Assembly: GCA_017397935.1 (NCBI GenBank)
Contig: JAFQHN010000007.1
Span: 1-52,770 of the forward strand
Direction: 5' to 3'
Length of the DNA stretch: 52,770 bases
Source: Bacillota bacterium
Lineage (GTDB): Bacteria; Bacillota; Dehalobacteriia; UBA4068; UBA4997
A program made the translations under genes and the position numbers. The notes beneath the pieces were generated by a model that was not told the DNA's origin, ran no database searches, and worked only from the letters and a program-made list of their open reading frames with translations. This document shows, one piece after another, positions 19,966 to 52,770 of the stretch. The stretch's first letter is position 1, and every line of letters begins with the position of its first letter.

Positions 19966-20172
19966 ATGTGGATTTATGACCGTAAACTGCAATTCCCGGT
20001 GAATATTAAAAAACCTGATGCCCGTGCTGCCAAAGTTATCATTACTCAGTACGGCGGTCCTGACGGTGAACTTGCCGCATCGCTTAGATACTTATCCCAG
20101 CGTTACAGCGTGCCGTACCGTGATGTGGCCGGTGTGTTAACCGATATTGGTACCGAGGAATTGGCACATTGA
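19966..20172 (+). pseudogene. cotJC: cotJC 5' part (manganese catalase, interrupted by prophage)
   Basis: The reading frame encodes the first 68 residues of CotJC, a spore-coat manganese catalase. Glu35 in GPDGELAA and the Glu65-x-x-His68 motif in GTEELAH are the expected first metal ligands. A TGA stop follows directly after the 11-bp att core, so the protein loses the rest of the four-helix bundle. The missing part resumes in the same frame at 52556. As it stands the product cannot form the dimanganese centre. Precise excision of the prophage would restore the gene without any base change. Confidence 0.95.
20158..20168 (+). other. attL core of the prophage
   Basis: The 11-bp sequence GAATTGGCACA is identical to 52556-52566. 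The flanking bases differ (G/C before, T/C after). The core encodes Glu-Leu-Ala-His of the CotJC metal site. Downstream, TACCTAAA (20178-20185) is one arm of an inverted repeat whose partner lies next to attR. Confidence 0.92.
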
Positions 20173-20263
20173 TGATGTACCTAAATAATCAAACAGGATT
20201 TGGCAGGATTTTTACAACTGTTCTCCTAAAAAATTATCTTAATTTGATGTATCTACCCAAACA

Positions 20264-20306
20264 AAAAGCCTCCCTGCCGGGCATCCACACCCAGCAAGGA
20301 GGCTTT
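20264..20306 (-). terminator. Terminator of the phage late operon
   Basis: GCCTCCCTGCCGGG (20268-20281) pairs with CCCAGCAAGGAGGC (20290-20303). On the minus strand the two mismatches become G-U pairs, giving a 14-bp stem followed by TTTTTG. It closes the late operon 3 bases after the M23 gene and may also stop cotJ transcripts entering the prophage. Confidence 0.88.
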
Positions 20307-20308
20307 CC

Positions 20309-20884
20309 TTATCTCTGCTCTATTACTTCTACAACCGGCAGCTTCCTGGTAGCATCATACCCCACGCTGATTTTATCATCCCGCAGGTCCTGCAATTTCA
20401 CATAGTTGTTGCCGTCCTTTTCGATTGCCGTCACGGTTTTCTCGATACCGTTCAGCCTAATTTTGATTTTCTTCGTAATCTCCAACCTTTCCTTGATAAA
20501 TTCCAGCGGGTCAATGCTTGCTGGGTAGCTGTAATTGCCCCGGTGTACCTCTATATGCAAATGCCGTCCGCTGGCATTACCGGTCGCACCCTCGGCACCC
20601 AGCACCGTCTTTTCGTTTACCTCCATCCCGACTTTTACATACACATCCCGCAAGTGTGCGTACAGCGTCATATACCCATCAGCATGGCGCACATACACAC
20701 AGTTTCCGTAGCTGCCGCTATGGCCCACTTTATACACCACGCCGGCATACAACGGATACACCAGACCATCACCGCCGGCGGCCACCGATACCATATCCAG
20801 TCCACTATGCCAGCCGCATTTCCAGCTCTCACCCTGCTCACCGTAGCGCGTCCCCAGACCAAACTTATCAAACGGATATCTCAC
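20309..20884 (-). CDS. M23 peptidoglycan endopeptidase with stalk-like C-terminal domain
   Basis: The 191-residue protein has a LytM/M23 fold: His26 and Asp30 in GWHSGLDMV and the second zinc motif HLHIEVH. These peptidases cut peptide cross-bridges in the cell wall. The C-terminal 60 residues (from about KIKIRLNGIEKTVT) resemble the copper-amine-oxidase N-terminal/stalk-like fold. I chose GTG at 20884 because GGAGGTG lies just upstream. It is the last gene of the late operon, so it is likely an endolysin component. No signal peptide is visible. Confidence 0.88.
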   Translation of the reverse strand: MRYPFDKFGLGTRYGEQGESWKCGWHSGLDMVSVAAGGDGLVYPLYAGVVYKVGHSGSYGNCVYVRHADGYMTLYAHLRDVYVKVGMEVNEKTVLGAEGATGNASGRHLHIEVHRGNYSYPASIDPLEFIKERLEITKKIKIRLNGIEKTVTAIEKDGNNYVKLQDLRDDKISVGYDATRKLPVVEVIEQR

Positions 20885-20945
20885 AAAATCACCTCCATAC
20901 AACAAAGCAGGCGAAGGACCACATCCCCCGCCTGCTTCACTTTTC

Positions 20946-21926
20946 CTACGCTCTGATGGTAATAATCCCCTCTTTATAGTCCACCCGGCAGCCCAGCGCC
21001 TCCGCAATAAAGCGCAGCGGCACAAAGGTTCTGCCTTGTGATGCAAACGGAGCACAATCCAGAGCCACACTTTCGCCGTTTACCTCCGCAGCGTGGCTGC
21101 CAATGGTCAATACGATTTCCATACTCTCATCCTCACTTTCCATAACTTCCTGCTCCGGCACTTCTACCTCTTGGCAAGTGTCCGGCATCACAAAGAATCC
21201 GTAGCCACTCATGCTGTCCTTCCCGGTTTCATCCATATCCCGGCAGTTTGCCTTTATCATTTCCCGCACCACGCCAACCGGCGGCACTTCCCGGCCGGTA
21301 TAGTATGTAGCCAGCATTCCGGAGAGCCACGGTGCAGCACAGCTTGTCCCATGGAAAGGAATTGCTCTGCCCTTGGTGTTCAGCGCATACACGCCGGTGT
21401 AGGCCACACAATCCATACTCTCTCCGATGGTATTGCAATGCTGCAAAGTGCCGTTTTCATAGATGCCGCCCACACCGATAGTCCAATCAAAACGGGCAGG
21501 CTCAGCCAAATCGGATTTATCTTCGCCGTCATTGCCACCTGCCGCCACCACCAACGCATCCAGCGCCTCCATATCAGGCCACAACCAATCACAGCTGCCC
21601 AGCTTCATCGACATATTGATAATATCAACATGGTTTTCCTTTAACCAGGCAATAGCTTTCTTCTTGTCTTCGGTGCTATTAAAAAAAGGCAGCATAACAA
21701 TCTTTGCACCCGGCGCAGCTTCGTGGACTACTTGTGCCACCCAAGTACCGTGCGTGATGCTCTTGCCCTCACCAAGCGGCGCGGAATAGATTTCTCTGTC
21801 CATATACTCGGTGATAAACGGCCATTCATCCAGCACCGCCACCGTGATACCCTGCCCCTTCAAGCCCTTATTATGCCATTCGGTCAATCCGCATTTTTCA
21901 CGCTTAGCGTCATTGTATGTAAGCAT
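20946..21926 (-). CDS. Subtilisin-like (S8) serine protease with stalk-like C-terminal domain
   Basis: The 326-residue protein carries the full S8 triad: Asp33 in VAVLDEWP, His59 in THGTWVA and Ser195 in HGTSCAAPWLSG, with Asn132 as the oxyanion residue. The last 70 residues (IGSHAAEVNG, FVPLRFIAEALG, KEGIITIRA) form a copper-amine-oxidase N-terminal-like domain, as in the neighbouring M23 protein. There is no signal peptide. The start at 21926 has AAGGAG 8 bases upstream. It lies between the holin and the M23 gene, where phages normally carry an amidase or muramidase. A proteolytic role in lysis or coat penetration is inference. Confidence 0.9.
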   Translation of the reverse strand: MLTYNDAKREKCGLTEWHNKGLKGQGITVAVLDEWPFITEYMDREIYSAPLGEGKSITHGTWVAQVVHEAAPGAKIVMLPFFNSTEDKKKAIAWLKENHVDIINMSMKLGSCDWLWPDMEALDALVVAAGGNDGEDKSDLAEPARFDWTIGVGGIYENGTLQHCNTIGESMDCVAYTGVYALNTKGRAIPFHGTSCAAPWLSGMLATYYTGREVPPVGVVREMIKANCRDMDETGKDSMSGYGFFVMPDTCQEVEVPEQEVMESEDESMEIVLTIGSHAAEVNGESVALDCAPFASQGRTFVPLRFIAEALGCRVDYKEGIITIRA

Positions 21927-21931
21927 ACACA

Positions 21932-22207
21932 TCACTCCTTATTCGGTTCGGTATAGCCCAGCGCCCGAGTGCTGTCCGTAACACCGCTGGTAGTCGGGTC
22001 ATTTACAGCGTTCCAGATATTACACAGCACCAAGAACAGGCAGTAGGGGTTGGTAAAAGTACCCTCCACAATCTCCCAGACTGCACCCCAGCTCGTCATA
22101 TCTGCCTCGGTCATACCGGCATAAGCCAGAGCCGTAGCAAAAGCGCCCAACAATACCTGCACCCAGAACACCGGATTTTTCAATCGCACAGGAATATTGA
22201 TTTTCAT
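21932..22207 (-). CDS. Phage holin, phi-LC3/holin_1 type
   Basis: The 91-residue protein has a hydrophobic segment near residues 11-31 and another near 54-66, and a polar C-terminus, in the layout of small phage holins. The conserved ending with VNDPTTSGVTDSTRALGY is typical of phi-LC3 holins. It would form membrane lesions that release the lytic enzymes. Start ATG 22207 is supported by GAGGTG upstream. The S8 protease gene follows after 5 bases. Confidence 0.9.
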   Translation of the reverse strand: MKINIPVRLKNPVFWVQVLLGAFATALAYAGMTEADMTSWGAVWEIVEGTFTNPYCLFLVLCNIWNAVNDPTTSGVTDSTRALGYTEPNKE

Positions 22208-22272
22208 AACACAACACCTCTTTTTTCTATTTAACATAATACCATTCATCTCGCCGGACATTCTATGCCATC

Positions 22273-22530
22273 CTATACCGGCACATAATGCCTGATCTCA
22301 TCCTCGACTTCCTTCTCAAACGCTTCCAGATCATCAATACGATGGTTGGCCACCCGCATTTTTTCCTCCAACACATAAGTGCGCTCAACAAGGCTGTTGT
22401 GCCTCTCCACCTTCTTTTCCAGCTGTTTCAGACGAAAATCCGTCAGCTTGCCGGCGGCCACAATACCGCCGAATGTCCCCACTAATGTTCCGCAAAAAGC
22501 AATAACTGCCACAATAATCTCACTGCTCAT
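22273..22530 (-). CDS. XhlA-like membrane protein
   Basis: An 85-residue protein with an N-terminal membrane helix (about 5-26) and a charged coiled coil (about 35-80, LKQLEKKVERHNSLVERTYV). The layout matches XhlA-type helper proteins that work with phage holins. Its membrane helix is N-terminal rather than C-terminal as in classic XhlA, so the family assignment is tentative. The ATG overlaps the XkdX stop by 4 bases. Confidence 0.65.
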   Translation of the reverse strand: MSSEIIVAVIAFCGTLVGTFGGIVAAGKLTDFRLKQLEKKVERHNSLVERTYVLEEKMRVANHRIDDLEAFEKEVEDEIRHYVPV

Positions 22531-22670
22531 CCACTCACCCCACCCTGCTCATCCGCTGTGATTTCGTCAAATTCTCCTTGGGTTAACTTCCCAGCGTTAA
22601 GCAAGGCAGTCAACCTATTAATATCCCACAGTCGGGGATAGTATTTCTTTGCCATTTCGTATACAGTCAT
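22527..22670 (-). CDS. XkdX family protein
   Basis: A 47-residue protein read from the ATG at 22670: it contains AKKYYPRLWDINRL and AGKLTQGEFDEITA, the hallmark of XkdX proteins encoded at the end of phage tail modules. It overlaps the upstream gene in a TAATG and the XhlA-like gene in an ATGA. Its function is unknown; the position suggests a link between tail and lysis genes. Confidence 0.85.
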   Translation of the reverse strand: MTVYEMAKKYYPRLWDINRLTALLNAGKLTQGEFDEITADEQGGVSG

Positions 22671-22954
22671 TACAATTCAACTCCTGTCATAACAGCAATA
22701 AAGTCAACATCAGCACGCAGCCGTTCAAGTTCGGTCGGCTCTGGGGCGGTTTCCTCGACAACAGGAATTTCACCAGCCGTCCAGCTTGTTACGGTCATAA
22801 CACCGTTAATTTCCTCGGCTGTTACATCTCCAAAAGGAAAGTTTGGTGTTTCCATATCGGCAGGGATAACCGCCCAGCCATCAGGCAAAATGCCGTGAAA
22901 AGTTTGATTTCTGTGTCCTCCGTTATCCAGAGCAATAATTTCAATCATTCTCAT
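22670..22954 (-). CDS. Tail-region phage protein of unknown function
   Basis: A 94-residue protein starting MRMIEIIALDNGGHRNQTFH. It has the segment GILPDGWAVIPADM, seen in small proteins that sit between the tail fibres and XkdX in siphophages of Bacillota. The C-terminal third (ELERLRADVDFIAVMTGVEL) could form a helix. It is coupled to xkdX by TAATG. No function can be assigned. Confidence 0.75.
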   Translation of the reverse strand: MRMIEIIALDNGGHRNQTFHGILPDGWAVIPADMETPNFPFGDVTAEEINGVMTVTSWTAGEIPVVEETAPEPTELERLRADVDFIAVMTGVEL

Positions 22955-22969
22955 TGTTTATCCCTCCTT

Positions 22970-23476
22970 TTAACCGATAGCAATATAGTGATGAATATTA
23001 TTTGTGTATTCCACATAATGATATGAGTTTGACGCGCTTTCGGACTTACTAATAGTAATACTGTTAGTCCCCCATCCAGCTGCAGTAAAATAATAATTGG
23101 TTTGCGCACCCATAACCTGTGAATGGTCATCAGATGTTTCATTTGCCGCACTAACAATCAATAAAGCTGGTTGTAAAGAGGATGAAACCGTTACAACTAA
23201 AATCACCATAGACGGTGCAAAACCAAAAGTAAGCGTTTTCGTGCTAAGGTTTTGCACTCCCACATAACTACCGCACTCTATCCTCAGTGTTCCAAGCATT
23301 CCTGTGCTTAACGCTTCAATTATCGTATCAATCACATTCTGCCGGTTCACCTTGTTGCCGTCCACCACCGGCTCGTCCGCCAGTTCCAGCGTGGCATAAA
23401 AAGCTTCGCCGCCATTCTCCGGTGTTACCAGCACCCGCCCCGGTTTACCCGGCACTCTGTCCTCCAAAACCGCCAT
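22970..23476 (-). CDS. Putative tail fibre/receptor-binding accessory protein
   Basis: The 168-residue protein is composed mainly of predicted beta strands in its second half, with repeated Ser/Thr and Tyr residues. The N-terminal half (VNRQNVIDTIIEALSTG) looks like a short helical adaptor. It lies directly after the large fibre protein, with 15 bases between stop and start. I do not recognise a specific family. A role at the tail tip follows from position only. The start at 23476 (ATG) is preferred over a TTG one codon earlier. Confidence 0.7.
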   Translation of the reverse strand: MAVLEDRVPGKPGRVLVTPENGGEAFYATLELADEPVVDGNKVNRQNVIDTIIEALSTGMLGTLRIECGSYVGVQNLSTKTLTFGFAPSMVILVVTVSSSLQPALLIVSAANETSDDHSQVMGAQTNYYFTAAGWGTNSITISKSESASNSYHYVEYTNNIHHYIAIG

Positions 23477-23495
23477 CAAAAATCACTCTCCTTTA

Positions 23496-25358
23496 TCAAA
23501 ATGGATACGCACCGCTGTAAATTATATCTGCATAGGGCAATTCGGCTATCATATTTTGCAGCAGCAAATGCACATCCTCAACAATCTTTTCAATGTCATT
23601 TGCCTGCTGATGGCTGCGCACCCAGTCCGGCGTATTCGGCGTATCGGCAAACACCGCCAGACGTTGCCGCAGCCCCTCCACCGCCGCCAGATACTCCCGC
23701 AGGTCTGCCGCATAAAAATACTCTGCCGCCGTCCAATTTGTCCGCATATCTGGATAATAGGGATAACCCCACTCAGTCAGCAACTCCGCCACATAGTTTA
23801 TCGCCGCACCCACACGGTTCAGGTCGCTGGCATTATATGCCCCCTTGTGGGATACGTCCAAATACTCCTGCTGTTCTGCTTCGGTCAGCTTGTCCCATCC
23901 TTTGGTCATCAAAGCTTCCAGTCTGTCCACGTCAGCCTGCGTGCGATCGGTTATCAGGTGCAGAGTACCGCCAGTATCACTTGTAAGCGTGGTGAACGTT
24001 GTAGTTGCATTACCCCCAGTAGCCGCCGCATCGGTTTCAGACCAAATAACGCCGTAGACTGCGTAATCGGTGGCAGGGGTCAGACCAGTAAAGGTGTGGC
24101 TCTCGGAATGGGAAGTTCCTGCGAACAGTTCGCTTGTCCATGTGGGTTCAAGCGTGGTGTCCAGACCGCCAGAGCCGACCTTGCTGACTTTTAGCGCATA
24201 AGTTCCTGCGGCTTCGGTGTAAATCATTAGGAAGCCGTTGATCGATACGCTCACGATGAAAAAGGGATAGTTTGCGAAACTCGGTTCAGAATTATCTTCC
24301 AGTAGTTCACCTACACAAGCGGCTTGCGTACCAATCACTTCGCTGAAATCCTGTGCAACAAACTTGTATGTCACCCCTTCAAACTCAACAATCAGCGTAT
24401 CTCCTTCATTGAACACTGGCGCTGACGTATACAACACCGGAGCAACATCGGATTCGTCAGCCGTAGTAGCACTGCCATCAAACAGCACTTCCTTGCTCGG
24501 CTCATACACCCACGCCTTGATGCGGTACACGGAATCGGTGTAAAGCAGGTCGGAACAGGTGAAGTTGACCGTCGCCGTGGTGGAAGTTATGCTACCGCCA
24601 AACGCATTAGGGAGATAAAGGGCAGAAAGCCAACCAATAACACCATCACCAGAAATATAGCGCACATATGTGCCATCTTCGGGTACTACAACAAAACCAT
24701 CCTCATAACTTCCTGCTTGTGCAGAAAGAGCAATTAGAGCCTCCGTGTTGATGTTAAACACCAAACCGAATCCATCGTACCCGTCGGCACCAGTAGCCAT
24801 ACCAGTGTAATCCGCAAGGTTTCCGCCACCATCATAAGTTGCACCAGTTAGTTCCTCGATGGCAAAAACCTTGTCGGAAACCTTGTAAAACGTACCAAAA
24901 CCCTCAACCGAAAAATTAGGTAATCCCGTAGTATCGCCGTTCCAAGTAATCGTTGTTCCGAAGAGGGTGAGTTTGCTATCATCCACAGGAACAGGCTCAC
25001 TTGCGGCGAGGTAGACAACTGATGTGTCTTCATAGGTAACAATGTCATGGTTCGACCAAAAAATACGAAACCCGTCACTAATATTCGTTCTGAATAGATA
25101 ACCGTTCGCTTCTTGAGAACCAGAGATGTACGACTCCCATGTAGTGCCATCGGTTAAATATGTTTGAAACACAAATGCTTCTGGATGGATGTCAGACGTG
25201 TAATCGCCTACGGTACTAAATTGTGTTTTGGAGCTTGTCAAACACAAGCCCATTACACCAACCACATCACAAATATATGCATACGGATATGTTTCCTTAT
25301 CCGTCCAGACGGTGTTAATGTCAGGCAGACTTACCCCGCCGTAGCTGTACTTTGCCAT
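23496..25358 (-). CDS. Large tail fibre protein with FN3-like region
   Basis: A 620-residue tail protein. The N-terminus (MAKYSYGGVSLPDINTVW) and first 250 residues are rich in Tyr/Gly beta structure. A fibronectin-type-3-like segment with FTGLTPATDYAVYGVIW follows near residue 440. The C-terminal 150 residues, beginning DRTQADVDRLEALMTKGWDKL, are helical, as often seen in tail proteins of phages from gut Clostridia. It likely binds the host surface. The ATG at 25358 has GGAGGTG upstream and overlaps the DUF5658 stop by 1 base. Confidence 0.82.
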   Translation of the reverse strand: MAKYSYGGVSLPDINTVWTDKETYPYAYICDVVGVMGLCLTSSKTQFSTVGDYTSDIHPEAFVFQTYLTDGTTWESYISGSQEANGYLFRTNISDGFRIFWSNHDIVTYEDTSVVYLAASEPVPVDDSKLTLFGTTITWNGDTTGLPNFSVEGFGTFYKVSDKVFAIEELTGATYDGGGNLADYTGMATGADGYDGFGLVFNINTEALIALSAQAGSYEDGFVVVPEDGTYVRYISGDGVIGWLSALYLPNAFGGSITSTTATVNFTCSDLLYTDSVYRIKAWVYEPSKEVLFDGSATTADESDVAPVLYTSAPVFNEGDTLIVEFEGVTYKFVAQDFSEVIGTQAACVGELLEDNSEPSFANYPFFIVSVSINGFLMIYTEAAGTYALKVSKVGSGGLDTTLEPTWTSELFAGTSHSESHTFTGLTPATDYAVYGVIWSETDAAATGGNATTTFTTLTSDTGGTLHLITDRTQADVDRLEALMTKGWDKLTEAEQQEYLDVSHKGAYNASDLNRVGAAINYVAELLTEWGYPYYPDMRTNWTAAEYFYAADLREYLAAVEGLRQRLAVFADTPNTPDWVRSHQQANDIEKIVEDVHLLLQNMIAELPYADIIYSGAYPF

Positions 25359-25651
25359 TACATTTTCACCTCCAACGTACAAGCTATACCCACACCGTGA
25401 TACAGCAGCAAAGCGGCATATACTGCCATACAACAGGGCATTCCAACCCTTGCAACACGCTCACGCCTGCCGGAAAGCAGCATAAGCAAACTGCCCACAA
25501 TCACAGTCTTATAAAAGACCATAAAAGGGACGTTCTGCATAAACGGATTCAGTTCTTTTACGCCCAGGCGCAATGCGCACAGGGTGCATAACAGGTCAAT
25601 CAGGTTCAGTATATAGGTTGTGCTGCTTATCGCTTTGGCTTCGAAATTCAC
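25358..25651 (-). CDS. DUF5658 small membrane protein
   Basis: The 97-residue protein has about three hydrophobic segments. The segment NLIDLLCTLCALRLGVKELNPFM carries the D...T...L..G..E.NP pattern of DUF5658 membrane proteins. It is inserted between two tail genes and is coupled to the fibre gene by a TAATG overlap. A membrane protein in this place is not part of the virion tail as usually known; its role is unknown. Confidence 0.75.
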   Translation of the reverse strand: MNFEAKAISSTTYILNLIDLLCTLCALRLGVKELNPFMQNVPFMVFYKTVIVGSLLMLLSGRRERVARVGMPCCMAVYAALLLYHGVGIACTLEVKM

Positions 25652-25667
25652 TTAACACCACCCCGTA

Positions 25668-27779
25668 TCAATAATAAATAATGGCACACCCGGCAGCTCC
25701 CTTGCCGCCGGCGCCACCGTCCACCGGGCTGCGCTTATACACCCATTTCTCGCCGTTCCAGGCACGCGCACCCTGTCTGCCGCCACCGCCGCCTTGGCCG
25801 CCACATCCGCTGCCCGGCTCGCCGTCTGCACCATTGGTCACGCTCTTGCAGTTTTCGGCACCTGCCGCACCGGGGGCTGCATATACCTTGCCGGTATAAA
25901 CATCACCCCAGCCGCTGTCATATCTCTTGCCGTCGGCTGATGTATAACTGCCGCCAAAGGTAGTATTATCACCGATAACAATGCCGTATTCACCACCGGA
26001 TGTTACATTAACCCGGCCAACCCACACCCGGCCGCCCTGGCCACCGATGCCCGGCTGGCCGCTGTCATTCCAGGTACCATCCTCACCCGGGCTGCCGTCA
26101 CTGCCTCTGTCGATAAGTACCAGCCATATCTGTGTCACACCCTCAGGCGCTGTCCACACTCCATCAGCTGTTATCTCAGCCCGTCCGGCATATTCTGCCG
26201 CCCAACCGGCCTGTATATGCCAGCTTGGTGTCTCCTGCATCACGCCGCTGCTGAATTTCAACTGCTGCTTATAGCGCCGTGCCGTCACCTTCTCGGCAAA
26301 TATTGTCTCAAAGATGTCCACATCTCCCAGCTCACAGGCCGGGTCGCCGCGCCCGGCGATTTTGAACTTACTGCCGCCGCACAGCCGCAGTATATTGCCC
26401 GCTGCCGTCAAAGCTTTCGCCTCGGTACGGATGAAGGGGTTATCTATCTTCTGGCTCTGCTCAGCGGCGCTGTTGTTGCCGCCTACGGTATACAGCACGC
26501 CGTTCGCCAGCTTAAAGGTAATATCCGCCCACTCGTCACCGGCCGATTCGGCGGGATAGCCGTACTGCTCCGACAGGCTGATATACGTCCCCTGCCGGTC
26601 ACTGATCTTCTGTATCGTCAGCCGGCCCGTAGCCGCATCTGCGCCATACCATGCGCCAATGGCCATGCAGATATAACGCAGCAGTACACCGCAGGTCAGC
26701 GCTTCCACCTCCTCGTGGGCGGCAGTCAGCGTTTGGGCAGCCAGCGTTTCATCAATGATATAGCGCTGTGTAAAGTTCTCGCCGACAGTTGCCAGCAGCA
26801 CCTCAACCCAGCCCTGCACCGTCTCCGGCAGCTCCTCCGGCAGCAACACCACCCGGTCGGCCAGCAATCCCACGATGCTCACACAGTTAAAGGTAAAAGA
26901 GCTGTCCGTTGCGGCCGTTTCCCAGCCGCCTTTCTGCATATAATACACGCCCACCGGCACCGTTTCCACTCTGCCGCCCGGTACGCTTACGCCATAATAT
27001 ATCGCCACCGCCTGACGGTCTTCAATGCTCCGGAAGATGCTATCCTTGGCTCTGGGATGAAAACGCCTGTTCTCATTACGCAGCACTATCCTGGCATTGC
27101 CGTATGCTACGGTCAGGTTGGTCAGATCGGTAGATTGCAGCACATCCATCTCATAGATATCCGCACCCGTCCACTCTTCCAAAACTCCCGCATATATTTC
27201 CAAAATCCGTGGACGCCGCCTTGGCAGACTCCATCTTCCGAACACTATCCTGATAGCCGTTGGGTCATACACCGTAAACCCTTCCAGCACAATGCTTCGC
27301 TCGGTGTTCCCCACAACTTGCTGCTGCCAAACGATAGAAGAGCCGACATATATCTGCATATCAAATTCCACCGGCCATCCCTCGGCCGCACCGTCTGCAA
27401 AAATCAGCGTCACCGCTTGCAACACCTGTATGTTGCTTACCGGCTGCTCGATATAGGCATCCTCACCAAAGGTACCGTCCTCACCGCTCATCACATCAAA
27501 GGCTGCCGCCACTTCTTCGCTGATTACCGTATCTTTCTCCGGCAGTTCCGCATTACCGTCCAGCAGCCAGATATTATGTTCCAGCGTGGTCATTGTTTTA
27601 TCGCTGACCTTTTTGCGGTTATGCAGATGCTCTGTATCACAAAAAGGTAATATTTCACCTCCGGCAAACGGTTCATCATATACAGCATCAGGGTCGCCCA
27701 GGTCTATCAGGGCCATGGGCGTCACCACTCTGGGGTTGGCGTGTACCGCTGCAAGATACGTTTCACTCGTTTCCTGCAT
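25668..27779 (-). CDS. Tail tip/fibre protein with glycine-rich C-terminus
   Basis: A 703-residue protein. The N-terminal 500 residues resemble the tail-associated (baseplate hub or Tal-like) proteins of siphophages, including LQSTDLTNLTVAYGNARIVL and a helical segment near 340-400. The last 140 residues are very rich in Gly (for example GSGCGGQGGGGGRQG) and end GCAIIYY, as in glycine-rich tip domains of phage adhesins. Start and distal-tail gene stop overlap as TGATG. Likely part of the tail tip; the exact role is uncertain. Confidence 0.75.
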   Translation of the reverse strand: MQETSETYLAAVHANPRVVTPMALIDLGDPDAVYDEPFAGGEILPFCDTEHLHNRKKVSDKTMTTLEHNIWLLDGNAELPEKDTVISEEVAAAFDVMSGEDGTFGEDAYIEQPVSNIQVLQAVTLIFADGAAEGWPVEFDMQIYVGSSIVWQQQVVGNTERSIVLEGFTVYDPTAIRIVFGRWSLPRRRPRILEIYAGVLEEWTGADIYEMDVLQSTDLTNLTVAYGNARIVLRNENRRFHPRAKDSIFRSIEDRQAVAIYYGVSVPGGRVETVPVGVYYMQKGGWETAATDSSFTFNCVSIVGLLADRVVLLPEELPETVQGWVEVLLATVGENFTQRYIIDETLAAQTLTAAHEEVEALTCGVLLRYICMAIGAWYGADAATGRLTIQKISDRQGTYISLSEQYGYPAESAGDEWADITFKLANGVLYTVGGNNSAAEQSQKIDNPFIRTEAKALTAAGNILRLCGGSKFKIAGRGDPACELGDVDIFETIFAEKVTARRYKQQLKFSSGVMQETPSWHIQAGWAAEYAGRAEITADGVWTAPEGVTQIWLVLIDRGSDGSPGEDGTWNDSGQPGIGGQGGRVWVGRVNVTSGGEYGIVIGDNTTFGGSYTSADGKRYDSGWGDVYTGKVYAAPGAAGAENCKSVTNGADGEPGSGCGGQGGGGGRQGARAWNGEKWVYKRSPVDGGAGGKGAAGCAIIYY

Positions 27780-32466: not shown

Positions 32467-32485
32467 TCATTTATCACCTCCCGGT

Positions 32486-33679: not shown

Positions 33680-33692
33680 ATTTCATCCTCCC

Positions 33693-42623: not shown

Positions 42624-42671
42624 ACCCCGACCCCTATCGTCACCTTTTTAATACCCATTACGAGGTTTAAT

Positions 42672-42709: not shown

Positions 42710-42769
42710 TATAATTCTGCGGCCTGTTTGCTATTAAGTTCTTCTATTATAAGATAAGCCCGTTAGGCT

Positions 42770-44559: not shown

Positions 44560-44573
44560 AGCTTGTCCACCTC

Positions 44574-45055: not shown

Positions 45056-45058
45056 AAA

Positions 45059-46401: not shown

Positions 46402-46722
46402 TTACAAATGCCTCCTTTTGTGGCAATCATGCACCTTGAAGCCGAGTGTGCAGCCTCCCCAGCCGCGGTCCACGGCCTGTCCGTGAACAAACTCTCCCTT
46501 CCGGCTGAGAAAGGTCTGCTTTTCACCCGGCATTACACCGGGATTGATAATATGCAGGTCCTCCTCTACGGGCAGCCACGCTCCATTTTCCGCCCTGACA
46601 AAACGGATTTTGCGGCGGCAAAACTGGCAGCGTGCATTGGCCAGCGGAATTTTTATTGGTTTCAGGGGAGTGCCATCTCGGTGATAAACAGTAACCTTTT
46701 TGTAATTCTTTGCATTTACCAT
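46402..46722 (-). CDS. Small phage protein with Cys pair
   Basis: A 106-residue protein with CQFCRRKIRFVRAENGAWLP near residue 31, a Cys pair of rubredoxin-knuckle type, and a second Cys pair (GGCTLGFKVHDCHKRR) near the end. This looks like a zinc-ribbon. The ATG at 46722 overlaps the upstream stop as TGATG. Function unknown. Confidence 0.7.
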   Translation of the reverse strand: MVNAKNYKKVTVYHRDGTPLKPIKIPLANARCQFCRRKIRFVRAENGAWLPVEEDLHIINPGVMPGEKQTFLSRKGEFVHGQAVDRGWGGCTLGFKVHDCHKRRHL

Positions 46723-46892
46723 CAGGCTTGTCCACCTTCTTTCTTCTTTGCGTCCGGCCCGATGCCAAGCCGACACCACGGGCAAAGATATCCAATTTTC
46801 GGCACGTACGCCGTCTTGGCTATATACCATCTTCGCCCGCACTGTCGGCAATCAGCCGAGCGTGCATCTTCTGTATGTACTCTTGTTCCCAA
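46722..46892 (-). CDS. Small zinc-ribbon protein (TTG start)
   Basis: A 56-residue frame encodes DCRQCGRRWYIAKTAYVPKI followed by GYLCPWCRLGIGPD, a two-knuckle CxxC...CxxC zinc ribbon. It is not preceded by an ATG; the TTG at 46892 has AAAGGAG 11 bases upstream. The stop overlaps the next start as TGATG, typical of this operon. The conserved Cys spacing supports it as real. Function unknown. Confidence 0.65.
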   Translation of the reverse strand: MGTRVHTEDARSADCRQCGRRWYIAKTAYVPKIGYLCPWCRLGIGPDAKKKEGGQA

Positions 46893-46908
46893 CTTACCTA
46901 TGACTCCT

Positions 46909-47151
46909 TTATATCTCCTGCATTTTACGCAGGGCTGCTCTGGTCATAATTTCCAAAGCTATTCTTTCAGAATTTTCCCGAATCATTTGCAGCTGCTCCG
47001 GGGTTTTATTACGATATGCCGCATCCATCACGACTACCTGCGTGCCATCTGCCAGCGTAAACTCGGCAGCAACATCGCCTTTGGCGGGAGAATCACAATT
47101 CATCCAACCTATGCAGGATTTGTGCGGACATCCGTCGCATTGCCTCGACAT
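46909..47151 (-). CDS. Small Cys-rich phage protein
   Basis: An 80-residue protein that begins MSRQCDGCPHKSCIGWMNCD, with four Cys in a compact N-terminal cluster, then a short beta hairpin (AEFTLADGTQVVVMD) and a helical tail. A metal-binding head is likely. GGAGGTG precedes the ATG. Function unknown. Confidence 0.7.
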   Translation of the reverse strand: MSRQCDGCPHKSCIGWMNCDSPAKGDVAAEFTLADGTQVVVMDAAYRNKTPEQLQMIRENSERIALEIMTRAALRKMQEI

Positions 47152-47289
47152 ATCTGCACCTCCTATATTTTTTTACCCAAGTCTATGCTGCAATCGTTTG
47201 TCCACTTGCCCGGCATATTGACTTTGGAGGTTCTGCTATGTTAATATATAGTTGTAATTATTTATGAGTGCCTTCGGTCCGGAGGCCTG

Positions 47290-47324
47290 CGCCGTCAGCG
47301 TTGCAGCGTTGGCGGCGTTTTTTT
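47290..47324 (+). terminator. Plus-strand Rho-independent terminator in the early region
   Basis: CGCCGTCAGCG (47290-47300) pairs with the GCG-UUGGCGGCG side ending at 47317, closing a 5-base loop with G-U pairs, and is followed by seven T (47318-47324). The stem works only on the plus strand, opposite to the surrounding genes. The 90 bases upstream hold a second hairpin GCCTTC-n5-GGAGGC and a possible short transcript (see findings). Confidence 0.65.
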
Positions 47325-47328
47325 GTGT

Positions 47329-47658
47329 TTATACGTCAACCGCAGACATTTGAGCAGACATATATTCAAACAGATCCGTGACGTCGCGAATATCCAGTTC
47401 GTGGCCGGCTGCTGCCTCAATAGCCGCTGACGCTCCATGTCCCAGAGCAGCATCAACACTTGCAGTCATTAACCGTCGTACTTCATCCGTAATATCATCA
47501 GTACCCCCAGTGTTTACGGCCAGAGCCTGCATTCTGGCAGCATTCATTCTTAATACCGCCAGCGATTCTTTATTGGGAGCATAAACAAACTCTAATCCCT
47601 CAATTTCCAGCACAACTTGCCGAGGGCGAAACTTAAAACCTTCCTGTTTCTTTGCCAT
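47329..47658 (-). CDS. Phage protein of unknown function
   Basis: A 109-residue protein with a front part FKFRPRQVVLEIEGLEFVYA and an Ala-rich helical rest (ARMQALAVN, then VDAALGHGASAAIEAAAGHE). It resembles small tail-assembly-like proteins in sequence style but lies in the early region. It overlaps the upstream gene by 26 bases. Function unknown. Confidence 0.65.
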   Translation of the reverse strand: MAKKQEGFKFRPRQVVLEIEGLEFVYAPNKESLAVLRMNAARMQALAVNTGGTDDITDEVRRLMTASVDAALGHGASAAIEAAAGHELDIRDVTDLFEYMSAQMSAVDV

Positions 47659-47866
47659 TATTGATTACCTCTCTCGTTATACTATTTTCCTTGTTTTTTT
47701 TGACGGGCAGCAACTTTGTATTAGTTATTAACCGATCAAGATATGCCTCCATTTGTGGAATAACATATTTTATCTCGCCTACTGCATAACCCTCATTAAT
47801 CATCTGTTCAACCAGGCGACGTGCCATCTTGTGGTATTCGCGCATATCTCTGCTCGCAAAACACAT
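47633..47866 (-). CDS. Small phage protein of unknown function
   Basis: A 77-residue, mainly helical, basic protein with REYHKMARRLVEQMINEGYA and YVIPQMEAYLDRLITN. GAGGGTG precedes the ATG at 47866; an internal ATG at codon 8 is an alternative. Small, basic and early, it is one of several possible excision-factor candidates, but nothing in the sequence proves it. Confidence 0.65.
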   Translation of the reverse strand: MCFASRDMREYHKMARRLVEQMINEGYAVGEIKYVIPQMEAYLDRLITNTKLLPVKKNKENSITREVINNGKETGRF

Positions 47867-47947
47867 CTCTCACACCCTCTCTTGATGTCACTTTACCTGC
47901 CATTGCGTGTATAGTGGCATTTGTGAATTATATGGCATATATCACTG

Positions 47948-48139
47948 TCATAAAAATTGAGCAATGATATATGTCAAAACAAAAAGCAAGGTGGCAGCAG
48001 CCGATAGCAATTTGCCGTCAATGACATATTGTGCGCTGCCTACTGCAACACCAAGCGGCACCAACAAATCTGCAATAAAGAACATCAAAACTGCCGTTAT
48101 CCCAAATAGCATTGCTATTACCCAAGCAAACCTTTTCAT
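47948..48139 (-). CDS. Small membrane protein
   Basis: A 63-residue, very hydrophobic protein with two membrane helices (about 5-30 and 43-62). GGAGGGG lies upstream. It sits just after the Cro-like gene. Function unknown; a membrane-acting early protein is possible. Confidence 0.65.
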   Translation of the reverse strand: MKRFAWVIAMLFGITAVLMFFIADLLVPLGVAVGSAQYVIDGKLLSAAATLLFVLTYIIAQFL

Positions 48140-48163
48140 CTAACTTCACCACCCCCCTCCCAT

Positions 48164-48403
48164 TTAACTTGTGCCAACACTTTTCTTGTGATTTTCGCAA
48201 GTATCATCGCAAAAAAAATACTCCTCAATATGCCCAAATATATCAAACTTGGATGCAATGGCAACAATCTCATCAGCTCTGAACTTTGCTTTGCCAGCCA
48301 ATTTCGCATTTAAGGTGCTCTCATTCAAGCCTATTTCTGTTGCCAACTGCTTTTGAGATATATTTTTTTCCGCCATCAATCCGCGCAGCTTGCTATACCG
48401 CAC
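48164..48403 (-). CDS. Cro-like XRE-family regulator
   Basis: The 79-residue protein has an XRE helix-turn-helix (ISQKQLATEIGLNESTLNAK). The C-terminal tail has two Cys (FFCDDTCENHKK). GTG at 48403 is the start, with GGAGGTG 5 bases upstream. It is the first gene of the leftward early operon, driven by the promoter at 48437-48465. Its 3' end carries a copy of the operator palindrome (48185-48201). Confidence 0.85.
   Translation of the reverse strand: MRYSKLRGLMAEKNISQKQLATEIGLNESTLNAKLAGKAKFRADEIVAIASKFDIFGHIEEYFFCDDTCENHKKSVGTS
48185..48201. promoter_or_regulatory. Operator-like 17-mer inside the cro-like gene
   Basis: CTTGTGATTTTCGCAAG differs by one base from the perfect palindrome at 48445-48461. 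It is about 260 bp away from it, within the coding end of the cro-like gene. Confidence 0.55.
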
Positions 48404-48436
48404 AATAACACCTCCATTCATGTTAGCTTTGCCATT

Positions 48437-48465
48437 ATTATACGCTTGCGATTTTCGCAAGTCAA
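48437..48465 (-). promoter_or_regulatory. Leftward early promoter of the cro-like operon with operator O1
   Basis: On the minus strand TTGACT (48465-48460) and TATAAT (48442-48437) are 17 bases apart. The spacer contains the perfect palindrome CTTGCGA-TTT-TCGCAAG (48445-48461), which overlaps the -35. A repressor bound there would block RNA polymerase. Confidence 0.88.
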
Positions 48466-48482
48466 GTGTTATAACAAAAATA

Positions 48483-48534
48483 TTTTGGTTTTTCGCAAGC
48501 CTTTCTTGACTTTTTGCAAGTTCATCACTATACT
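48483..48534 (+). promoter_or_regulatory. Rightward repressor promoter with operators O2 and O3
   Basis: TTGACT (48506-48511) and TATACT (48529-48534) are 17 bases apart. A palindrome-like site CTTGACTTTTTGCAAG (48505-48520) covers the -35 and start of the spacer, and a weaker half-matching site ending TCGCAAG lies at 48483-48499. This suggests autoregulation of the repressor. Confidence 0.85.
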
Positions 48535-48554
48535 AAAAGCAAGGAGGACTATTT

Positions 48555-48959
48555 ATGACTACTTATCTTGTATCGAATTTTGCGAGCAGGCTCCAAGAAG
48601 CTCTTGCGGCAAGAGATATGACAGCTGCTGAATTATCGAAAGTAACCGGCATAAACGAGGGAACAATAAGCAATTACAAGCAAGGAAAATACAAACCTAA
48701 ACAAGACAAACTGGAATTGATATCCACGGCGTTAAATGTTTCAGCAGGTTGGCTGTTGGGTGCAGATGTGCCAATGACCAATACTCCAACATCAACTTAC
48801 TCTGCCACTCAGCCTATTTTCTCCGAACCGTTAAAGACTGCTATCGAACTCTTTGCTCGGTTGGACAGCGGTGATCAGCACAAAATAATCGGACGCATGG
48901 AAACTATGCTGGAGGATGAAAAATATTTACAGCAAGAGGCGTCATCCAAAAACGCATAA
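48555..48959 (+). CDS. CI-like XRE-family repressor
   Basis: The 134-residue protein has an N-terminal helix-turn-helix (MTAAELSKVTGINEGTISNY) and a short helical C-terminal part, without the peptidase domain of lambda CI. Such short repressors rely on an antirepressor or other inactivation. AAGGAGG lies 7 bases before the ATG. It is transcribed divergently from the cro-like gene and likely keeps lysogeny. Confidence 0.9.
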   Translation: MTTYLVSNFASRLQEALAARDMTAAELSKVTGINEGTISNYKQGKYKPKQDKLELISTALNVSAGWLLGADVPMTNTPTSTYSATQPIFSEPLKTAIELFARLDSGDQHKIIGRMETMLEDEKYLQQEASSKNA

Positions 48960-49027
48960 ATAATATAATTTTCCTGATTTTTTGACTGGTTGGAGCACAA
49001 TATTGGATAGAAAAGAAAGGTAATATC

Positions 49028-49642
49028 ATGCCTGTATGTACTAAATGTAATCAAAAGAAACCCTTTTGGAGTTTTGGGCCTAATGGTATTTGCTCTGAAT
49101 GTGCAGCAAAAGAAACGGTGTCCATTACGCCCAAACCGGTTTCATTGGAAACTGTTAATAAATATTCCGTTGGGTTGACAGTTTACTTAAAGCATCTTAG
49201 CGGAATGGAAAACTTGAACATTACAGACCCAAACAAATATGTGAAAATTACTATTGATGCCAAAGAGAGAAAACTGCATTTTGATAATGCTAATGATAAG
49301 ACACCTATTGCCGTTCTGGATATAACCAAAATTACTGATGCCCGAGAGGCAACACAAGTTGTTTCAGAAAATAAAAGTGTTACCGGTCGTGCTGCTATTG
49401 GAGGTCTGATATTTGGACCGGTTGGAGCTATTGTTGGCGGTCTATCTGCCCTCGATGAACAAACTGGCATCGCAACTCGTGTGGTGATATTCACCTATAA
49501 ATCACAAGAAGAGACAAAGCAAATAGTAATGGCTTGTATACCGTCTATATCATCTGGATATCAAAATTTTATTGAATATTTACCCAAGGATCCTAATTCA
49601 CCTTATGCACCACCAGCTAATGGCGAGCCGGTAGAATTATAA
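49028..49642 (+). CDS. Zinc-ribbon/glycine-zipper protein of unknown function
   Basis: The 204-residue protein starts with a zinc knuckle (CTKCNQKKPFWSFGPNGICS, then EC) and has a central beta domain (KYVKITIDAKERKLHFDN). A glycine-zipper helix AAIGGLIFGPVGAIVGGL at about 122-139 could enter a membrane. It lies in the lysogeny arm next to the repressor, in the same direction, so it is probably expressed in the lysogen. A superinfection-exclusion or host-modifying role is possible; nothing proves it. Confidence 0.75.
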   Translation: MPVCTKCNQKKPFWSFGPNGICSECAAKETVSITPKPVSLETVNKYSVGLTVYLKHLSGMENLNITDPNKYVKITIDAKERKLHFDNANDKTPIAVLDITKITDAREATQVVSENKSVTGRAAIGGLIFGPVGAIVGGLSALDEQTGIATRVVIFTYKSQEETKQIVMACIPSISSGYQNFIEYLPKDPNSPYAPPANGEPVEL

Positions 49643-49653
49643 GCAAATTACAG

Positions 49654-49693
49654 AAAAAAAGCCCCCTGCCCTGCTGCAACAGGACAAGGAGCC
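49654..49693 (-). terminator. Minus-strand terminator left of the nuclease gene
   Basis: The sequence 49661-49693 forms a stem with two C-A mismatches on the plus strand, which become G-U pairs on the minus strand; the plus-strand A-run at 49654-49660 is a T-run on the minus strand. Thirty bases (49664-49693) are repeated exactly at 50766-50795. Confidence 0.75.
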
Positions 49694-49737
49694 GTACAAT
49701 TTGGTAAAATAATAAATCTATTTGGAGGTACTAAGAA

Positions 49738-50739
49738 ATGAAAAGAAAATTATCGATTATCCTGGCAGCCCTCTCCCTTTGGCTGATGATGTCAGTGCCG
49801 GTTTTTGCGGCCAATGACATTCAGATTTTTGTTGATGGCAAAACCTTGGCAATGGACGCCAAACCCACCGTAAGCAACGGCACAACACTGGTTCCTATGA
49901 GAGCCATCTTCGAGGCTCTGGGCGCCACCGTTAATTATGATGCCACAACCAAACAGATTACCGGCACCAAAGCAGCCGACGTCGTCCTGCTTATTCTGAA
50001 TCAGACTACCGCAACCAAAAATGGCGCCGCAGTCCAGCTGAGCGTTCCGCCGCAGGCTATTGACGGCCGCACTATGGTGCCCCTGCGCTTCATTTCTGAA
50101 TCCCTTAAATGCTCTGTCGTTTGGGATGGTACGACCAAGACCGTTACCATTACCTCTGGCGGCGCTGCCAACACAGCCACCCTGTACGATGTCGTTCGCG
50201 TTGTCGATGGTGATACCATCGTTGTCAACTACAACGGCACAGAAGAAAAGGTAAGAATGATCGGCATTGATACCCCCGAGAGCGTCCACCCCGACACCGA
50301 CAAAAACACCGAGGCCGGTCAGACCGCATCTGAATATACCAAAACCCTGCTGGAAAACAAAGCCGTATCCTTGGAGTTTGACGTACAAGAGCGCGATCAG
50401 TACGGCCGCCTGCTGGCGTATGTCTACCTCAACGGCACTATGGTCAATAAAACCTTGCTGGAAGACGGCTATGCCAATATTGCCACCTACCCGCCCAACG
50501 TGAAATATGTTGATGATTTCACCGCCATCGTTGCCGCTCGGGATAATTCCGACGTCACGATCAGCGACACAACCGAAACCACAGAACAGACTGATACCAC
50601 CGGCACACAATACTACCGAACCAATACCGGCAAGAGATACCATGACGATCCTACCTGCAATGGCGGTACATACTATCCCTGCACATTAGAGGAAGCCAAA
50701 GCATCCGGCCTCACACCGTGCGATAAATGCATTGAGTAG
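49738..50739 (+). CDS. Secreted thermonuclease with stalk-like domain (lysogenic gene)
   Basis: The 333-residue protein has a signal peptide (residues 1-24), a copper-amine-oxidase N-terminal/stalk domain (27-145, with TLVPMRAIFEALGA and MVPLRFISESLKC) and a staphylococcal-nuclease domain (150-270). The catalytic set is visible: Asp in VDGDTI, Arg and Asp/Glu in VRMIGIDTPES and Arg in QYGRLLAYVY. The C-terminus has a Cys-containing YHDDPTCNG...CTLEEA...CDKCIE motif (Ada-like metal-binding). It is flanked by two matching terminators, so it looks like a moron cassette expressed in the lysogen. Confidence 0.92.
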   Translation: MKRKLSIILAALSLWLMMSVPVFAANDIQIFVDGKTLAMDAKPTVSNGTTLVPMRAIFEALGATVNYDATTKQITGTKAADVVLLILNQTTATKNGAAVQLSVPPQAIDGRTMVPLRFISESLKCSVVWDGTTKTVTITSGGAANTATLYDVVRVVDGDTIVVNYNGTEEKVRMIGIDTPESVHPDTDKNTEAGQTASEYTKTLLENKAVSLEFDVQERDQYGRLLAYVYLNGTMVNKTLLEDGYANIATYPPNVKYVDDFTAIVAARDNSDVTISDTTETTEQTDTTGTQYYRTNTGKRYHDDPTCNGGTYYPCTLEEAKASGLTPCDKCIE

Positions 50740-50753
50740 ATTTCATACCAAAT

Positions 50754-50795
50754 AAAAAAAAGACTCCCTGCCCTGCTGCAACAGGACAAGGAGCC
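50754..50795 (-). terminator. Minus-strand terminator right of the nuclease gene
   Basis: A near copy of the terminator at 49654-49693. Bases 50766-50795 are identical to 49664-49693. On the minus strand the 12-bp stem is followed by a T-rich run (the plus-strand A-run 50754-50761). Confidence 0.75.
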
Positions 50796-50901
50796 ATAGG
50801 TAAGTTTAGGCTGTACTAAAACCCAAACGCAATTACAGTATAGCATAAGCCTGCCTTATTTTCCAGTACAATTTTTTCGGGCAGGTCTATTTTTTTGCCT
50901 G

Positions 50902-50928
50902 CTCCTGTAAAGTGAAAATACAGGAGGG
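50902..50928 (+). promoter_or_regulatory. Hairpin covering the integrase ribosome-binding site
   Basis: CTCCTGTA (50902-50909) and TACAGGAG (50919-50926) are perfect inverted repeats with a 9-base loop. The right arm contains the first six bases of the Shine-Dalgarno AGGAGGG (50922-50928), 8 bases before the ATG at 50937. An adjacent repeat GCAGG (50881-50885)/CCTGC (50898-50902) could form a competing stem. In the folded RNA the integrase would be poorly translated. Confidence 0.6.
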
Positions 50929-50936
50929 TACATACA

Positions 50937-52493
50937 ATGGCATACTGCGCCTATTTAAGAAAATCCCGTGCCGATGCCGAGGCCGAAGCCAAAGGCGCCG
51001 GCGAAACGCTCGCCCGGCACGAAGCAGAGCTGCTGCATCTGGCAGCTCGCCTAAATATAAATCTCACCGCCATCTATAAGGAACTCGTCAGCGGCGAAAC
51101 TATCGCCAGCCGTCCCAGGATGCAGCAGCTTCTCGCCGAGGTCGAATCCGGTAAATGGCAAGGCGTTCTGGTGGTAGAGATCACCCGTCTTGCCCGCGGC
51201 GACACGATAGATCAGGGTATCGTTGCCCAGGCTTTCAAATACTCCGGCACCAAAATCATCACCCCGGCCAAGATTTACGATCCTGCCAATGAGTTTGATG
51301 AAGAATATTTTGAATTCGGGCTCTTTATGTCCCGCCGAGAGTATAAAATGATCAATCAGCGCCAGCAGCGCGGCCGTCTGGCTGCCATACAAGAGGGCAA
51401 GTTTGTCGGCAACAAAGCCCCTTACGGTTATCGACGCATCAAGCTGGAGCACCAAAAAGGCTGGTCGCTCGAACCGGACGAAAACGCTGATACCGTACAG
51501 CTGATATTCGATCTTTTCACTAAGGAGCGCCTCGGTTGCAGCAAAATCCGTCGCAGGCTCAATGACCTGCGCATACCTACCGTTACGGGCAAGCCCTGGA
51601 CCGACTGCGTTATCAGAGGGATTGTAACCAATCCGGTATATGCCGGCTGGGTACGCTGGGGATACCGTCCCACGCAGAAAAAACCACAGGACGGCGTCAT
51701 TAAGAAAAGCCGCCCACGGGCAGCAGGGGAAAACATTACGTTGACCCACGGACTTCACCAACCCATTATAACGCAAGAGCAATTTGATACCGCCCAGGAA
51801 ATACTACAAGCCAATCGTTCTACACGCGAGAGGTGTGACCTTGGGCTGCAAAATCCCCTTGCCGGCATTGTAACCTGCGCTTGCTGCGGCAACACCATGA
51901 CCCGCCGCCCGGGCGCAAATGACGGCCAGACCGGCACTATGCTGATGTGCTATACCCAGGGCTGCCCTACTGTCGGCAGTGTATTAACGAAGGTAGAGGC
52001 TGCGCTGCTCGATTCCCTGCGGCAATGGCTGCACAACTACCGTATGTCAGCCACTATTCCGGAAGAACAGAACGACACTACCGATATTCTGCACAAATCA
52101 GCCGCGGCCCTGCAAAAGGAGCTTGACGCTACCCAGCAGCAACTGTCCCGTATTCACCAGCTGTTGGAGCAGGATATTTACAGCGTAGAGGTGTTCCTAA
52201 ACCGTTCGGCCGAGGTAACTGCTCGACAAGAGGAACTGCAAAGTAAACTGGAAGGCATACAAAAAGAAATAGCGACCAAGGAAAGCGCCGCCAAAGCCAG
52301 CACCATATTGATACCGCGCATTCAAAGCGTGTTGGATGCCTACCCCACGGCCGCCAGCCCAGAGGACAAAAACCGCTTGTTAAAATCAGTGCTAAAAAAA
52401 GTAGATTATTACAAAACCACTCGATGCAAACGCAACGATCCGGCAGATAACCTAAAACTAATTATTTATCCTCGTCAACCGGAAGAATTATAA
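50937..52493 (+). CDS. int: Large serine recombinase (phage integrase)
   Basis: The 518-residue protein has a resolvase N-domain with the catalytic Ser10 in YLRKSR and Arg residues in SRPRMQQLL and EITRLARG. A recombinase domain follows (about 160-300, with GNKAPYGYRRIKL and GIVTNPVYAGWVRWGY). A zinc ribbon uses Cys314/316/317 and Cys338/343, and a long coiled coil lies at about 385-450. It recombines attP and attB; excision normally also needs a directionality factor. It lies 62 bases from attR with no terminator between, so its transcript would continue into the cotJC 3' part. Confidence 0.95.
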   Translation: MAYCAYLRKSRADAEAEAKGAGETLARHEAELLHLAARLNINLTAIYKELVSGETIASRPRMQQLLAEVESGKWQGVLVVEITRLARGDTIDQGIVAQAFKYSGTKIITPAKIYDPANEFDEEYFEFGLFMSRREYKMINQRQQRGRLAAIQEGKFVGNKAPYGYRRIKLEHQKGWSLEPDENADTVQLIFDLFTKERLGCSKIRRRLNDLRIPTVTGKPWTDCVIRGIVTNPVYAGWVRWGYRPTQKKPQDGVIKKSRPRAAGENITLTHGLHQPIITQEQFDTAQEILQANRSTRERCDLGLQNPLAGIVTCACCGNTMTRRPGANDGQTGTMLMCYTQGCPTVGSVLTKVEAALLDSLRQWLHNYRMSATIPEEQNDTTDILHKSAAALQKELDATQQQLSRIHQLLEQDIYSVEVFLNRSAEVTARQEELQSKLEGIQKEIATKESAAKASTILIPRIQSVLDAYPTAASPEDKNRLLKSVLKKVDYYKTTRCKRNDPADNLKLIIYPRQPEEL

Positions 52494-52555
52494 AGGACAG
52501 CTTAATAGCGCCCAGGTGGTACACCCAAGTTTAGGTATAACATCTTGGCGCGTAC

Positions 52556-52566
52556 GAATTGGCACA
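52556..52566 (+). other. attR core of the prophage
   Basis: GAATTGGCACA is identical to 20158-20168. On the left flank TTTAGGTA (52530-52537) is the inverted partner of TACCTAAA (20178-20185). In a circular phage DNA both arms would flank the core with 38 bases between them, a layout expected for a serine-integrase attP of about 50 bp. Confidence 0.92.
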
Positions 52567-52770
52567 CATGGAGATGATCAGCGCCATGGTTTATCAGCTG
52601 ACGCGCGATTTGACTATTGAGCAGATTAAAGAGCAGGGTTTTGCAGATTATTTTGTTGACCACACCACCGGCATATATCCGATTGCTGCATCCGGTGCGC
52701 CTTTTACCGCAACTTATTTCCAATCCAAGGGCGATATTATCACCGACTTGCATGAGGATATGGCAGCAGA
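52556..52770 (+). pseudogene. cotJC: cotJC 3' part (partial, continues beyond window)
   Basis: Read in the frame that joins exactly to the 5' part, the bases encode ELAHMEMISAMVYQLTRD and then a segment ending in GDIITDLHEDMAA, as in CotJC/manganese catalases. It follows the att core and lacks its own start signal. The remaining metal ligands (Glu and His of the second half) lie beyond the window. With the 5' part the gene is intact except for the prophage. Confidence 0.95.

Follow-up and report, generated by a model that had tools for sequence, protein, structure and literature searches.

The subject of this report is a 52,770-nucleotide stretch of DNA from a Bacillota bacterium of the class Dehalobacteriia (contig JAFQHN010000007.1; hereafter 'the window'), in which cotJC, a spore coat gene encoding a manganese catalase, is interrupted at codon 65 by a prophage of 32,398 bp. 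Joining the two halves of the gene at an 11-bp direct repeat, GAATTGGCACA, which is found exactly twice across the window, yields a single open frame from which no base is lost. We consider it probable that this is a phage with an integrase of the SPbeta type that resides in cotJC and is excised in the mother cell during sporulation, thereby repairing the gene, as is the case for the skin element and SPbeta.

The interrupted gene lies behind cotJA- and cotJB-like genes in a cotJ operon that spans positions 19424–20172, placing the element within a sporulation gene. An earlier note on this DNA had described the split, its repair at the repeat without loss of a base, and a large serine recombinase next to the right junction; the joined open frame and an intact recombinase gene at that position bear this out. 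Its statement that codons 1–68 end at a stop at 20172 is right as to position, but the stop is an accident of sequence within the element, the host portion of cotJC having already ended inside the repeat core. The window corresponds to an entire contig (C5) of a genome of 1.59 Mb (99.4% complete) and terminates inside cotJC. Its final 141 bp are also the first 141 bp of contig C13; this length is a usual k-mer size of a common metagenome assembler, and the contig end is therefore a graph end rather than a biological feature. C13 supplies the C-terminus, giving a restored CotJC of 201 amino acids. A second intact cotJC, which the note had held would speak against its proposal, was not found in the 99.4%-complete genome; the only other manganese catalase is an intact paralogue on contig C4 with 31% identity. 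The host genome also encodes SpoIIID and SpoIVA.

The note had also raised the prospect of other elements in the same codon, and dozens of genomes of spore formers proved to be split there beside homologous recombinases, which excludes a chance origin. We sampled relatives of the window integrase as the best 80 matches from 84,980 genomes together with 80 from viral contigs. Nearly half of them (73 of 160) adjoin a cotJC half cut at the GTEELAH codons, in hosts from Clostridia, Tissierellales, Alkaliphilus, Lachnospiraceae, Oscillospiraceae, Paenibacillus and Candidatus Avidehalobacter. The integrase gene is located beside the 3′ half on the same strand in 46 of these loci and beside the 5′ half on the opposite strand in 27. 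The same codon is thus used with both orientations of the element relative to its integrase (L034 and L013 versus L018), and orientation changes many times across the tree; the polarity of the central dinucleotide seems to be easily flipped. Split cotJC genes are also present in cultured type strains (Clostridium viride, Tissierella praeacuta, Alkaliphilus transvaalensis and Lachnotalea glycerini).

At the remaining 87 loci the flank was either too short to tell (33) or contained no cotJC half (54). Some of the latter appear to use another gene, such as an asparagine-synthase-like gene or a LysM gene resembling YaaH/SleL (targets named by eye). Relatives of the integrase lie inside the asparagine-synthase-like gene (DEIFGGYPW motif) in loci L049, L055, L064 and L144, so not all targets of the family are sporulation genes. 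Others are found at the end of LysM genes that resemble the spore enzyme YaaH/SleL (L059, L087, L088, L146, L152 and L168), which is possibly a second sporulation target.

Whole-genome searches with CotJC identified three cut sites in the gene, at codon ∼29 (QYGGPDGE; site 1), codons 62–67 (GTEELAH; site 2) and codon ∼135 (EDMAAEQKAR; site 3). All three motifs are conserved in an alignment to solved manganese catalases, and we take them to hold the metal ligands (Glu35, Glu66/His69 and Glu148 of the Lactobacillus enzyme). The inserted elements range from 3 kb, scarcely more than a recombinase, to complete phages, and each element for which the recombinase end is in hand has its own serine recombinase near an exon. 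Several may occupy one gene: in an Intestinimonas species (L188), elements of 3.7 kb and 5.7 kb separate exon 1 from exon 2 and exon 2 from exon 3, respectively, all within ∼10 kb, and repair gives a protein of 198 amino acids. Two elements per gene are likewise present in Lachnotalea glycerini (L201/L202), G093 (L189/L190) and G103 (L194/L195), while cotJC of Lachnospiraceae B68 holds three elements and four exons. Most of the joins checked at the repeats restore an open frame, of ∼180–207 amino acids where successful, apart from one of 345 amino acids with a repetitive tail. Joins were not obtained for G072, G098 and G036, and the automatic site-3 join of G097 was badly placed; the site-3 joins of G001, G006 and G107 were redone and are one alanine shorter than the likeliest join. 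In a recombinase tree, a well-supported branch sets off each of three groups (site 1, site 3 and a second site-2 set) from the large site-2 family. At least four recombinase lineages therefore target cotJC, although this was a quick tree in which long branches leave the deep joins unsure.

Within the window's class (43 genomes), ∼11 of the 39 genomes with a CotJC match have a split gene. Congeners of the window's host differ: cotJC is intact in G003, G005 and G008, and is split at site 3 in G001, at sites 1 and 2 in G004, at sites 2 and 3 in G006 and at site 1 in G007. Among 299 genomes sampled evenly across the phylum, about a dozen additional split genes stood against well over 100 intact ones among the matches listed (an approximate hand count). 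G049 was excluded from these counts for a possible contig break. An origin of the split at contig ends was rejected for loci whose two exons share one contig. As a control, spoIVA in the same class displayed fragments at contig edges and no split of the element type, and the paralogous manganese catalase, a second control, is listed at full length in the same tables.

Three further arrangements at cotJC were seen. Loci L219 and L221 (G192 and G364) and contig C1 of G259 contain a full-length cotJC plus a displaced copy of codons 27–192 that lies 9–50 kb away, as if a site-1 element had brought its own replacement 3′ end. In G359, a one-contig genome, the two pieces of cotJC are found at C1:198167–198274 (minus strand) and C1:681477–681968 (plus strand); they lie 483 kb apart on opposite strands, and simple excision would therefore not rejoin them. 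In G015 (L171, near position 3520) the CotJC C-terminus diverges from that of its sisters after HFQRFGE, close to a fourth conserved motif, which is possibly a fourth insertion site.

The split gene remains under purifying selection in sister species. G012, G015 and G017, which belong to one genus, have a common element of 4.4–4.7 kb that contains a recombinase, an open reading frame (ORF) of 62–91 codons and two collagen-like genes. Pairwise comparison of their cotJC genes gave proportions of synonymous differences (pS) of 0.55–0.78 and of non-synonymous differences (pN) of 0–0.02 in both exons (the divergent C-terminal end of G015 CotJC was left out), while their recombinases have diverged to 66–72% identity (pS 0.74–0.75). 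Two Alkaliphilus genomes that harbor different small site-2 elements encode CotJC proteins that are 97% identical, with 76 synonymous versus 9 non-synonymous changes. In the three sister species the protein has been kept while synonymous sites are near saturation, so selection still maintains split cotJC in functional form; were the gene dead once split, conservation of this kind would not be expected. The remaining alternative is that the conservation reflects repeated recent insertion of the same element out of a genus-wide pool.

The two collagen-like (GXY-repeat) genes of this common element (L170, positions 5222–9721; L171 and L172) resemble exosporium proteins of the BclA type, and the cargo may itself be a spore-surface product. 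Small site-2 elements (L203, 2037–4983; L206, 2844–6580; L200, 3777–8421; L197, 2540–3346) have varied non-phage cargo by eye, including iron-transport-like genes, an agr-like cluster, a kinase/regulator pair and a nucleotidyltransferase/HEPN-like pair.

A small gene in the window encodes a candidate directionality factor. A profile seeded by small ORFs from the minimal elements of Alkaliphilus and Tissierella defined an undescribed family of proteins of about 50–87 amino acids, with members at over 100 loci; the gene frequently lies ∼2 kb from the integrase, on the opposite strand. The window member is 43% identical to that of Ca. Avidehalobacter, and 10 of 12 site-2 elements examined (11 of 3–7 kb and one of 13 kb) carry the protein. 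Its assignment as a putative directionality factor is based on this co-occurrence and position. The family has no model in Pfam or NCBIfam, save one marginal Pfam hit in one member, and the window protein has no PHROG match either. A structure model of the small protein consists of a beta hairpin and a long helix, for which a structure search returned no match; matches of the profile in the PDB were rejected as short chance matches.

Upstream of the small gene, 29–52 bases ahead of its start codon, is a box, GGACAAACGATTGCAGCATAGACT, that is conserved in outline in Ca. Avidehalobacter. Across the same loci, the pattern ACA-N9-15-CATANNNT precedes 22 of 91 small genes versus 14 of 706 other genes, and TAGGACA precedes 21 of 91 versus 4 of 706; these statistics are descriptive, because all patterns were picked after viewing the sequences. 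The two patterns resemble the −10 element of sigma-E/K promoters and the SpoIIID consensus. TAGGACA is present at 18 of 39 cotJC-linked copies versus 1 of 18 others, a contrast that is blurred because the one other copy (L011), like L012, has a cotJC-like attachment (att) core; both may be un-integrated att sites. The common element of G012, G015 and G017 has a conserved ATA-N15-CATANNNT ahead of the small ORF and recombinase. Given the enrichment of such promoter-like boxes, the small gene may be under mother-cell control.

The window element itself looks like a complete temperate siphovirus, with a full set of phage modules (Table 1) that also includes replication and ParB-like genes. Residues 5–502 of its integrase align to SPbeta YokA/SprA (PDB 9dxh; E = 2.8e-54), and this full-length homology fits the SPbeta type of large serine integrases. 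Several viral contigs, L136 among them, bear an intact palindromic attP with a cotJC-like core, so free forms of this integrase and element family seem to exist.

Table 1. Positions of the cotJ genes, junctions and prophage features in the window.
Feature	Position	Strand	Basis or remark
cotJA-like gene, first of cotJ operon	19424..19639	+	ORF; kept upstream of cotJB/cotJC in related loci (tblastn)
cotJB, 111 amino acids	19627..19962	+	ORF; conserved partner in related loci
cotJC 5′ exon, codons 1–67 plus core	19966..20168	+	PF05067 match
attL core GAATTGGCACA	20158..20168	+	direct repeat, in-frame join
Prophage, 32,398 bp core to core	20169..52555		full set of phage modules
Lysis module: endolysin-type peptidases, holin	20309..22261	-	PHROGs
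Tape measure, major tail protein, connector proteins	28168..34265	-	PHROGs
Major head protein, head protease, portal, large and small terminase	35550..40786	-	PHROGs
Candidate recombination directionality factor, 80 amino acids	46909..47151	-	member of small-protein family, 100+ integrase loci
Box GGACAAACGATTGCAGCATAGACT: SpoIIID-like site and sigma-E/K-like −10	47180..47203	-	0.6% of Markov-simulated spacers have such a box
Divergent repressor genes, Cro-like (-) and CI-like (+)	48164..48959		PHROGs, Pfam helix-turn-helix
Large serine integrase, 518 amino acids	50937..52493	+	Pfam Resolvase and Recombinase over cut-off, zinc ribbon just under
attR core GAATTGGCACA	52556..52566	+	direct repeat, in-frame join
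cotJC 3′ exon, codon 65 to contig end, continuing on G000:C13	52556..52770	+	join at repeat

We propose that the attB of this SPbeta-type integrase is the strongly conserved run of GTEELAH codons in cotJC. During growth the gene would lie in two pieces and not be required. During sporulation the small protein encoded at 46909–47151 would be made in the mother cell from its own promoter of the sigma-E/SpoIIID type and would turn the integrase towards excision, the 11-bp core would be rejoined to give full CotJC for the coat, and the forespore chromosome would retain the prophage. Mother-cell excision, like the functions assigned to the small protein and to its promoter, is inferred from comparative sequence evidence. 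Several points weigh against this proposal: for a complete phage such as the window element, leaving the chromosome when induced would be enough; neither sequence nor fold connects the small protein with any established directionality factor; the promoter patterns, chosen post hoc, are missing from roughly half of the cotJC-linked copies; and CotJC-type catalases are reported to be redundant in C. difficile (PMC11222575).

Under a rival reading, cotJC is just a conserved and dispensable attB, lysogens are cotJC-negative, and the phage exits when induced and at no other time, independently of sporulation. The gene-complete element and the reported redundancy in C. difficile agree with this, as do the intact second manganese catalase of the window genome, the frequent use of conserved coding sites by serine integrases and the other genes used by relatives of the window integrase. 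Such ordinary lysogeny is nevertheless unlikely in our judgment, given that the split gene is under purifying selection in sister species with a common element, that minimal elements of 3–7 kb stripped of phage genes retain the recombinase and mostly the small protein, and that promoter boxes of the mother-cell type are enriched. The three sites, with up to three elements per gene and open restored frames, also favor repair in the mother cell. That the halves act as separate proteins and are never rejoined would agree with purifying selection on both exons, but we regard it as scarcely credible: the cuts interrupt conserved motifs within a single catalase domain, no start or promoter is obvious at the 3′ exons themselves, and there would be no call for short repeats that restore the frame. 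A misassembly, in which contigs of two strains or of phage and host were wrongly joined, might be suspected from the metagenome-derived style of the genome and the graph end inside cotJC; it is highly improbable, as the same type of junction occurs in isolate genomes and inside single contigs.

In our view the chances are even that excision is real but benefits just the phage, the small gene having acquired its mother-cell promoter to spare the host spore from harm, with no regulation of the host. Our estimates for this variant and for the proposal above overlap by design, since both accept mother-cell excision. The element is present in some congeners and absent from others, with cotJC intact in three, while small elements with non-phage cargo persist through speciation, which hints at tolerance or benefit. 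The cotJ operons are already mother-cell genes, as established for B. subtilis, and a split adds no obvious control. The earlier note had proposed a developmentally regulated intervening prophage that acts as a switch confining CotJC production to the mother cell; recurrence, minimal elements, the box and selection favor the first part, and the second is probably overstated because the operon is already expressed there. More likely, the element limits its own harm rather than adding regulation, and we describe the arrangement as host-gene repair that averts harm, not as a demonstrated regulatory switch. In the fullest version of our proposal, four recombinase lineages cut cotJC at three conserved catalase motifs into as many as four exons, each element is excised in the mother cell, a new family of directionality factors is under sigma-E/SpoIIID control, and some species need several excisions to make the one coat protein; we lean towards this version slightly.

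The cotJC pattern fits that of the sporulation gene-intervening elements skin, SPbeta, vfbin, gin and yin, and differs from them in the gene, the number of sites, the recombinase lineages and the elements per gene. SPbeta interrupts spsM in B. subtilis and is excised by the SprA integrase with the directionality factor SprB (PMC4191935). Like SPbeta, the window prophage splits a spore-envelope gene that it would leave precisely, encodes a full-length SprA/YokA homologue and has a small candidate directionality factor; unlike SPbeta, it occupies another gene, its excision is a prediction, its small protein has no detected similarity to SprB/YotN, and minimal relatives as well as genes with multiple elements occur. 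The skin elements in sigK of B. subtilis and C. difficile also combine a serine recombinase with a mother-cell gene to be repaired, and in C. difficile a small directionality factor is under sigma-E and SpoIIID (PMC5025042). However, sigK controls development whereas cotJC encodes a coat protein, so the effect of the split on the host should be milder. The gin (gerE), vfbin (spoVFB) and yin (yabG) elements are likewise serine-recombinase elements inside sporulation genes (PMC5595907, PMC10747680), and gin is without phage genes, as are the small cotJC elements; each of the three involves one gene, one site and one or few strains, in contrast to the three sites, four lineages and many families for cotJC. 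Multiple elements in one gene and a wide range of sizes are shared with the heterocyst elements of cyanobacteria, of which four occur in a nifD and whose sizes start at 1 kb (PMC4874684); those belong to another phylum and cell type and are unrelated by descent as far as tested. Prophage phi027 of C. difficile R20291 is also at a CotJC-like locus, but by its published description it is adjacent to the gene rather than splitting it with in-frame repair (PMC11222575, PMC12122855). We found no paper on cotJC elements, which is weak evidence of absence since subscription papers and preprints were largely outside the literature searched.

If the proposal is correct, DNA excision in the mother cell would be a repeatedly evolved arrangement in Bacillota, rather than a curiosity of sigK and spsM, and a single coat gene, cotJC, would be a main hotspot. 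Split cotJC genes in cultured type strains make the idea of excision testable, and candidate directionality factors for many large serine integrases can be drawn from the small-protein family. The series from a complete phage to a 3-kb element would illustrate how phages become tolerated parts of a developmental gene.

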